Shown here one piece after another: positions 51,487 to 53,695 of a stretch of 64,000 nucleotides of DNA (positions within the stretch are counted from its first letter, which is position 1; each line of letters begins with the position of its first letter). This stretch comes from Undibacterium sp. GTDB lineage: Bacteria > Pseudomonadota > Gammaproteobacteria > Burkholderiales > Burkholderiaceae_D. Position numbers and translations under genes: made by a program. The notes under the pieces are model-generated. The model did not search any database and had not been told where the DNA came from. It saw only the letters and a program-made list of their open reading frames with translations. The stretch spans positions 62,001 to 126,000 of the forward strand of contig JAUSNO010000010.1 of assembly GCA_030645915.1 (NCBI GenBank). Reading direction: 5' to 3'.

Positions 51487-53394
51487 TTATACTTTGTTTG
51501 CCACGTCATTAACGAGACGTTCCAACAAAGCTTCTTGAGTCATTACACCCAAGTCCAGATTACCACGCGTACGCACAGCCACAGTGTTTGCATCCCGCTC
51601 CTTATCGCCAACAACAACGATATAAGGTAACTTTTGCATAGAATGCTCGCGTATTTTATAGGTTATTTTCTCATTACGCAAATCTGTATGCACCCTAAAC
51701 CCTTGTTTCTTCAGGTTTTCCGCTACTGACTTAACATAATCTGCTTGTGATTCTGAGATATTGAGCACGACAATCTGTACCGGAGCAAGCCATAATGGCA
51801 ATGCACCAGCGTGATTTTCTATCAAAATGCCGATAAACCGCTCCATGGAACCGACGATCGCCCGGTGTAACATAACGGGCACTTTACGTGAATTATCGTC
51901 AGAGACGTATTCAGCAGAAAGACGACCGGGCATCGAGAAATCTACCTGCATGGTTCCCACCTGCCATGGACGTCCCAAGCTGTCTTTAAGATGATACTCA
52001 ATCTTCGGACCATAAAAAGCCCCTTCGCCTGGCAACTCGTCCCACGCCATTCCACACTCACGTAGAGCCGAGCGTAAAGTTTCTTCAGCCCTATCCCAAG
52101 TGTCGTCAGAACCGATACGGTTATCTGGTCGCAACGCAACCTTAATTGCAATATTTTCGAATCCAAAATCAGCATATACCTTCATCGCCTGAGAGTGAAA
52201 TGCAGCGACCTCTCCTTGAATCTGCTCCTCAGTACAAAAAATATGTCCATCATCCTGAGTAAATCCACGTACGCGCATAATGCCGTGCAAAGCACCTGAC
52301 GGCTCATTGCGATGGCACTGACCAAATTCACCATAGCGCAAAGGTAATTCGCGATAGCTGCGCATATTGGCATTAAAAATCTGGACGTGCCCAGGACAGT
52401 TCATCGGCTTCAACGCATAATTGCGATTTTCCGATTCAGTGCTGAACATGTTTTCACGATAGTTTTCCCAATGCCCTGTCTTCTCCCACAAGGTGCGGTC
52501 CAAAATTTGCGGAGCCTTAACTTCCTGATAACCGCAATCCTGATAAACCCGTCGCATATATTGTTCAATTTGCTGCCAAATCGTCCAACCTTTAGGATGC
52601 CAAAAAACCAGACCCGGCGCTTCGTCTTGAAAATGGAATAGATCCAGTGCCTTACCGAGTTTGCGGTGATCTCGCTTCTCAGCTTCTTCCAACATATGCA
52701 AGTACGTTTCCTGATCTTCTTTTTTTGCAAACGCCGTACCATAAATACGTTGCAGCATTTCGTTTTTTGAGTCTCCTCGCCAGTAAGCGCCGGCCAATTT
52801 CATCAATTTAAAAACTTTCAACTTGCCAGTCGATGGCACGTGCGGACCACGGCACAAATCAGTGAATGCACCCTCAGTGTATAAGGAGACATCCTGATCA
52901 GCGGGAATTGACTCTATGATCTCAGCCTTATATGCCTCACCGATTGATTTAAAGTAGGCAACAGCCTCATCACGCGGTAAAACTTTGCGAGTAATCAGCT
53001 CATCCTTCTTAGCCAGCTCGGTCATTTTTTTTTCAATTACCACCAGATCGTCTGGGGTAAATGGGCGCTTATATGAAAAATCATAGAAAAAGCCGTTTTC
53101 AATCACCGGGCCGATAGTCACTTGCGCCTCCGGGAATAATTCTTTTACTGCATACGCCAACAAGTGCGCAGTCGAGTGACGAATGACTTCGAGGCCATCA
53201 ACGTCTTTATCGGTGATGATGGACAAATCCACATCAGACTCGATTAAGTACGAAGTATCAACTAATTTGCCATTGACCTTACCTGCCAGTGCAGCCTTAG
53301 CCAAGCCGGCACCGATACTCGACGCCACACCTGCCACAGTAACGGCAGAATCAAATTGACGCTGCGATCCATCTGGAAGTCGAACTGAAATCAT
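51487..53394 (-). CDS. thrS: Threonyl-tRNA synthetase
   Basis: Charges tRNA-Thr. The 635-residue enzyme has an N-terminal TGS domain ([16 protein letters not shown]), the editing domain with [11 protein letters not shown], class II catalytic motifs with the zinc-binding [10 protein letters not shown], and a C-terminal anticodon-binding domain. GGAG six bases before ATG 53394 fixes the start. Its leader has two terminator-like hairpins and a Thr-rich short peptide (see 53517-53567), suggesting attenuation control. Confidence 0.97.
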
Positions 53395-53451
53395 TTTAGT
53401 CTCCATGCCGGCAAGGCTTACCGGAAGTTGTTCATTGAATTTTAAAAAAAT

Positions 53452-53525
53452 AGACGAAAAAAAACGCGGACTAGCCGCGTTTATTTTCAATACCAACAGA
53501 CGAAAAATAACACCGACTAGCGTCG
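53452..53525. repeat. Imperfect direct repeats carrying the two thrS leader terminator tails
   Basis: 53452-53479 and 53498-53525 match at 23 of 28 positions (AGACGAAAAA...GACTAGC). Each supplies the T tract and the 3' arm of one hairpin on the minus strand, as if one terminator arose from the other by duplication. Confidence 0.7.
53455..53484 (-). terminator. thrS leader terminator 1 (promoter-distal)
   Basis: On the minus strand AAACGCGG-CTAGT-CCGCGTTT is followed by a run of T. It stands about 60 bp before the thrS ATG, too close for a typical promoter after it, so it probably lies within the thrS transcript as an attenuator. Confidence 0.8.
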
Positions 53526-53558
53526 CTCACAAATGCTTGTGCTCGTAGTTCGCGGTGT
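53503..53558 (-). terminator. thrS leader terminator 2 overlapping the leader peptide
   Basis: On the minus strand ACACCG (53558-53553) pairs with CGGTGT (53515-53510), followed by TTATTTTT. An inner stem TTGTG/CACAA-type (53528-53541) folds the enclosed leader codons. The 5' arm is the Thr-Pro codons ACA-CCG of the leader peptide. Confidence 0.65.
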
Positions 53559-53567
53559 CATAACCAT
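53517..53567 (-). CDS. Putative Thr-rich leader peptide of thrS
   Basis: A 16-codon frame: [16 protein letters not shown], with four Thr codons (ACA, ACT, ACG, ACA) in seven positions. The ATG at 53567 is preceded by GAGAAAGG with five bases spacing, a strong ribosome binding site. The stop TAG is directly before the 3' arm of terminator 2, and codons 4-5 form its 5' arm. A ribosome paused at the Thr codons for lack of Thr-tRNA would block that hairpin. This matches the logic of amino-acid attenuators such as thrL and trpL. Not visible to standard gene finders because of size. Coding is inferred. Confidence 0.55.
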
Positions 53568-53618
53568 GATGCCTTTCTCGCTCTTACTCAGTATTGCTTT
53601 GTTTAGTACTATAAATTC

Positions 53619-53695
53619 TGGTGGGCGGTGCAGAATTCGAATCTGCGACCCCTTGGATGTCGACCAAGTATTCTAACCAGCTGAACTAACCGCCC
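53619..53695 (-). tRNA. tRNA-Val (GAC anticodon), with C33
   Basis: A 77-base cloverleaf on the minus strand, GGGCGGUUAGUUCAG to ACCGCCC-A-CCA. The anticodon arm is CUUGG-UCGACAU-CCAAG. The 7-base loop puts GAC at 34-36, C at position 33 instead of the near-universal U, and A at 37. Discriminator A73 fits Val. It lies upstream of thrS on the same strand. Confidence 0.9.

Follow-up and report, generated by a model that had tools for sequence, protein, structure and literature searches.

A putative threonine leader-peptide attenuator of thrS behind a tRNA-Val gene in Undibacterium and other Burkholderiales

The thrS gene of Undibacterium sp. is very probably under the control of a ribosome-mediated transcription attenuator of the trp type, in which a leader peptide would be translated, ribosomes would stall and expression would respond to threonine. 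The locus lies in a window of 64,000 nucleotides, the whole stretch of DNA analysed (contig JAUSNO010000010.1, assembly GCA_030645915.1). The features computed are an open reading frame, a frame-specific excess of threonine, a terminator, an alternative 2:3 pairing and a promoter signal before tRNA-Val. A first-pass annotation had proposed a ribosome-mediated attenuator of thrS with threonine control codons, and the proposal is supported by the frame-specific threonine, the steady terminator and the match between cognate 2:3 segments. Judged from the sequence, the anatomy is that of a classical four-segment attenuator: segment 1 carries Arg-Thr codons, segment 2 overlaps the stop codon, segments 3 and 4 form the terminator, and segments 2 and 3 form the antiterminator. 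By the same reading, the switch is the second of two predicted hairpins and not the first.

The tRNA-Val and thrS locus

The features of the locus are as follows.

51487..53394, minus strand: thrS, threonyl-tRNA synthetase, the regulated gene; long open reading frame with ATG at 53394, recovered throughout the relatives
53457..53469, minus strand: segment 4 (CCGCG, 53469-53465) and the T tract, to 53457, of the intrinsic terminator; terminator scan
53470..53481, minus strand: segment 3 (AACGCGGCTAGT), which supplies the terminator's 5′ arm and loop and pairs with segment 2 in the antiterminator; swap test and alignment A1
53509..53521, minus strand: segment 2 (GCTAGTCGGTGTT), overlapping the stop codon; alternative partner of segments 1 and 3
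53517..53567, minus strand: leader open reading frame, stop codon at 53519-53517, conserved start at the second ATG (53561); frame-specific threonine excess
53546..53558, minus strand: segment 1 (ACACCGCGAACTA), encoding Thr-Pro-Arg-Thr; base-paired to segment 2 in the predicted fold, conserved in A1
53573..53580, minus strand: candidate ribosome binding site, within GAGAAAGG; read from the sequence
53619..53695, minus strand: tRNA-Val (GAC); ARAGORN, Rfam tRNA 62 bits
53707..53735, minus strand: promoter-like site TTTACG-17-TATAGT before tRNA-Val; promoter scan

The open reading frame at 51487-53394 is presumably thrS, as the first-pass annotation had named it. That annotation had also described a threonine-rich frame between tRNA-Val and thrS with a ribosome binding site before it and TAG at its end. 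This is confirmed at 53567-53517 of the minus strand, where the codons read ATG GTT ATG ACA CCG CGA ACT ACG AGC ACA AGC ATT TGT GAG CGA CGC TAG. The first ATG (53567) is without conservation, and in many relatives only the second can be the start. Directly upstream of the frame in the window is GAGAAAGG, and the AGAAAGG of the candidate ribosome binding site is retained in most rows of alignment A1, which consists of 52 of 88 non-redundant sequences chosen by us as Oxalobacteraceae-like.

Two other observations concern this locus. The tRNA-Val of the window is of a sequence type (GGGCGGTTAGTTC...) that differs from that of many congeners (GACGCGTAGCTC...; L024, L113-L117 and L119), as if the gene at that position had been exchanged. 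A small inverted repeat, CCGGTAA GCC TTGCCGG, is found just before the thrS ribosome binding site (about 53407-53425); it recurs in some congeners, L004 and L005 among them, but not in all.

Threonine codons of the leader in relatives

Searches for thrS recovered the gene from 40 of 43 genomes in the genus, from 115 of 116 in a sample of the family and from 295 of 300 in a sample of the order; a scan of genome contigs retained 80 named thrS loci. In some genomes of the window's genus the thrS upstream region is identical to that of a named Undibacterium (L010 and L033), and the window is taken to be Undibacterium on that basis. The 246 upstream regions located comprise 226 distinct ones, each of at least 100 nt; four (L002, L003, L236 and L247, two of them mis-set regions) were excluded before counting. 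Nearly all are from Burkholderiales, and a few named records are from unclassified Proteobacteria or Gammaproteobacteria. Dissimilar representatives, sharing less than 35% of 10-mers, number 137, of which 86 have leader and terminator. The match to thrS at one locus (G136:C1:1946730-1948629) falls into two overlapping parts that differ in frame, so the gene would be broken or its sequence in error.

An open reading frame with CGAAC in an Arg(CGA)-Thr frame is present in 162 of the 226 distinct regions. Structural leaders were picked by this string, a few picks being doubtful (e.g. L153 and L169), and the first threonine after arginine is therefore present by selection. A count free of selection for CGAAC gives an ATG or GTG frame with at least three threonines in seven codons in 65 of the 137 dissimilar regions; the same rule picks out 4.0% of dinucleotide shuffles and, among reverse complements, 10.2%. 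Valine is the only other amino acid with such an excess, a weaker one (25.5% vs 6.2%), which is probably due to open reading frames that run through the tRNA-Val gene, e.g. MVGVVGSSPIEPTNE.

Following CGA-ACN in the 86 representatives, threonine makes up 165 of 688 residues (24.0%) in the leader frame, and 30 and 48 of 688 (4.4% and 7.0%) in the other two frames. The second and third codons after arginine (+2 and +3) encode threonine in 46 and 54 of the 86, and all four threonine codons are used. The frame-specific excess, with all four codons in use, reflects selection on the amino acid. Threonine is kept despite differing nucleotides in leaders such as MFRTTTTTGK, MFRTRTTTQR and MLFRTRTRTF. 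Threonine-poor leaders also exist, e.g. MTPRTFLLKR with two.

A CGAAC leader was not found in 64 of the 226 regions, Polynucleobacter included, and a few of these 64 have threonine frames with another residue in place of arginine, e.g. MVMTPLTTLERLIR. Within the order sample, the CGAAC leader is present in 12 of 22 families outside the window's own family, two of the 12 coming from doubtful picks. On this sequence comparison, the predicted thrS leader extends beyond Oxalobacteraceae. The first-pass annotation had proposed the upstream regions of relatives as a check, and there threonine is enriched in the reading frame only and a terminator follows the leader at a steady distance. A loss of threonine codons in relatives, which would have spoken against the proposal, is not general, but some relatives have two threonines only or are without a recognizable leader.

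Terminator, alternative pairings and transcript

The terminator scan of the window calls only the second hairpin a terminator, and a good one, with a stem of 53482-53475 and 53469-53462 followed by a T run; the second terminator that had been placed before thrS at 53455-53484 is thus borne out. The first hairpin (53503-53558), which had been described as terminator-like, does occur in the minimum-energy fold (-35.8 kcal/mol, z -2.7; matched or beaten by 3 of 200 shuffles), but the scan does not call it. It is more likely a leader-side 1:2 protector hairpin than a first terminator. A terminator is found behind the leader in 160 of the 162 leader-bearing regions, with a median of 36 nt from the leader stop to the stem.

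The 3:4 pairing holds in 96.9% of A1 cells (slid versions reach at most 64.8%) and displays covariation, with six cells changed on both sides and none of 500 shuffles having as many. For 2:3 the paired share is 95.3% of cells, against no more than 49.4% for slid versions, and covariation of this helix in A1 is not above shuffles (0.152 vs 0.151). Among the 86 representatives, cognate 2:3 duplexes have a mean energy of -13.16 kcal/mol, as against -11.72 kcal/mol for duplexes with swapped partners (z -6.6, 0 of 2000 permutations), and the cognate beats the median swap in 64 of 86. Ten runs of a composition-only control, in which segment 2 was shuffled, span z -2.4 to 1.3.

The 1:2 pairing holds in 90.4% of A1 cells (core pairs; slid versions at most 46.2%), where no compensatory change was found. 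Its swap-test result (z -1.8, 62 of 2000) does not exceed that of the 1:3 pairing taken as negative control (z -2.1, 43 of 2000). Dinucleotide shuffles of the spacer, carried out for 84 of the 86 representatives, give p ≤0.05 for 2:3 in 27 and for 1:2 in 7; outside the Oxalobacteraceae-like set the count is 5 of 37 for both. The Cupriavidus-like sequences (L086, L093, L096, L110 and L212) support 1:2 and not 2:3. Taken over the sequences compared, both conservation and the match between genomes support the predicted 2:3 antiterminator, and conservation alone supports the putative 1:2 hairpin. Another candidate for the switch, the leader pair CCGCG/CGCGG, was rejected, as relatives with a GCACGG terminator keep CCGCG.

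Folding of the leader RNA in the window predicts the terminator with a probability of 0.987 when no ribosome is present; a ribosome placed on the threonine codons changes this to 0.178, and one placed at the stop codon to 0.992. Masking of the threonine codons, which the first-pass annotation had named as a check, thus lowers the terminator probability in the window, but it brings the probability below 0.5 in only 21 of the 86 representatives; the corresponding numbers are 5 for the free RNA and 4 with a ribosome at the stop. Since the equilibrium terminator survives masking in most relatives, these would need a switch that works while the RNA is being transcribed. Before segment 4 is made, a 2:3-like pairing is the best predicted fold both in the window and in L024, and we infer that it fits a switch of this kind.

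In the proposed mechanism, transcription would start before tRNA-Val and pass through the tRNA into the leader, where a ribosome would translate the leader peptide. When charged tRNA-Thr is scarce, the ribosome would stall at the threonine codons and cover segment 1; segment 2 could then pair with segment 3, no terminator would form and thrS would be transcribed. When tRNA-Thr is charged, the ribosome would reach the stop codon and cover segment 2, and the 3:4 terminator would form. An untranslated leader would form the 1:2 hairpin, and the terminator as well. A leader and a switchable terminator before thrS would probably mean more enzyme when charged tRNA-Thr is scarce.

Between 53390 and 53900, TTTACG-17-TATAGT is the sole promoter-like site, with 1.2 such sites expected by chance. 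The 48 nt preceding tRNA-Val in relatives have an average sigma-70 score of 8.47 of 12 (shuffles 4.88; at least 9 in 71 of 120). Neither the 48 nt preceding the leader (3.81 vs 4.99 for shuffles; at least 9 in 0 of 97) nor the 48 nt that follow the terminator (5.33 vs 4.93; at least 9 in 1 of 111) show a promoter signal. A tRNA-Val gene on the same strand lies within 900 nt in 121 of the 162 leader-bearing regions. Co-transcription of tRNA-Val with thrS is probable from these signals. Table 2 of PMC9045368 assigns a mapped start site of Cupriavidus metallidurans to thrS under the tag Rmet_R0015, which we infer to be the tRNA before thrS.

It is conceivable, if improbable, that the terminator merely ends the tRNA-Val transcript, with thrS being transcribed from a separate promoter downstream and the leader frame being incidental. 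Terminators commonly follow tRNA genes, and tRNA-Val with a terminator also occurs in some relatives that have no recognizable leader; however, such an arrangement does not account for a threonine excess limited to one frame, for the 48 nt after the terminator being without a promoter signal, or for the cognate 2:3 match. The attenuator is preferred.

A covariance model built from A1 finds one strong match in the window's own genome, at thrS (122.5 bits; next 26.5). Of 59 family genomes, many of them sources of A1 sequences, 54 have a match, in each case with one at thrS, and four further weak matches in this set lie away from thrS. Neighboring open reading frames were listed for two weak matches elsewhere. 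As further leaders, the weak matches in the own genome and in relatives were rejected: they resemble ordinary terminators, and no threonine-rich frame was seen. At G082:C3:325382-325583 the model matches the leader in two pieces, as if something had been inserted between leader and terminator. Rfam includes Trp and Thr leaders, and none of its amino-acid leader families matches at gathering score, the best of leader type being Leu_leader with 13.5 bits vs 50. The Rfam T-box family has no match at the window locus.

Control of thrS in other orders and in known systems

In Escherichia coli, threonyl-tRNA synthetase (ThrRS) binds an anticodon-like hairpin in the thrS operator and represses translation. 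Operators of this type were sought as an anticodon-like hairpin that has an NGU loop and lies no more than 110 nt from the thrS start. The comparison drew on 58 genomes of the class, including the window's own, and used those 29 of the others that scored best and had a kept locus, a small sample biased to the most similar ThrRS proteins. The hairpin is found in 17 of these 29 (12 CGU and 5 GGU as called; L256 and L259 have more than one candidate each), and in 0.5% of shuffles; other loop triplets give 0 to 3 of 29. The hairpin was not found in the window within that distance of thrS. It occurs in 4 of the 137 dissimilar regions, three being the terminator itself, and the four look like terminators or chance occurrences. 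The threonine-rich frame (at least three in seven codons) occurs in one of the 29 genomes from other orders, L263; the raw count is 3 of 31, and two of those three are the window itself. In L255, L271, L274 and L275, also from other orders, the operator-like hairpin has GGU replacing CGU in the anticodon-like loop, as if it mimicked a different tRNA-Thr.

ThrRS or another protein might bind the conserved leader RNA and repress thrS, as ThrRS does in E. coli, with the open reading frame being secondary. The core nucleotides of the leader are conserved even at third codon positions in Oxalobacteraceae, as for an RNA element. Set against this, the anticodon-like hairpin is commoner in the other orders than in the regions here, in the proportions given above, and threonine persists where nucleotides differ, as in MFRTTTTTGK and the two leaders named with it; repression of this kind is very unlikely. 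Least credible of all is an arrest peptide, with a nascent chain carrying Arg-Thr, rather than tRNA charging, stalling the ribosome: MTPRT and FRT cores do recur, but the residues around Arg-Thr are highly variable except for threonine, and leucine replaces arginine in f21 leaders such as MVMTPLTTLERLIR.

The attenuator proposed here has parallels in known systems. Leader-peptide attenuation is long known, synthetases included: the E. coli pheST operon is likewise a synthetase operon under transcription attenuation, through the pheM leader peptide, and differs in having phenylalanine codons, whereas thrS has threonine codons and a position behind a tRNA gene. The trp and thr attenuators of E. 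coli share the four-segment logic, with control codons in or next to segment 1, but control biosynthesis operons and not a synthetase gene. The thrS operator of E. coli also exerts autogenous or feedback control of thrS; it senses the synthetase, whereas the proposed attenuator would sense charged tRNA. The T-box of thrS in Firmicutes likewise acts by antitermination in response to uncharged tRNA-Thr, but reads the tRNA directly without translation, where the attenuator would act via a translated leader.

The kind of switch is thus known, and what would be new is the gene, thrS, and the lineage, for which no report was found in the open-access literature. No report of a thrS leader peptide was found there either, and the work of Lopatovskaya et al. 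from 2010, whose title reportedly covers attenuation of aminoacyl-tRNA synthetase operons in bacteria, may already predict one. That work is cited in PMC4833913.

The balance tips slightly towards a replacement of thrS control at the base of the betaproteobacteria, whereby a leader-peptide attenuator that senses the charging of tRNA-Thr took the place of ThrRS feedback on an anticodon-like operator. The attenuator would lie inside a tRNA-Val-thrS transcript, and one promoter would then provide constant tRNA-Val and threonine-controlled thrS. The leader is also a conserved, unannotated small open reading frame in many genomes. If the replacement is true, a large bacterial group controls an essential synthetase by sensing tRNA charge, whereas its sister orders rely on protein feedback. 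The swap of control mechanisms would be directly testable on one gene.
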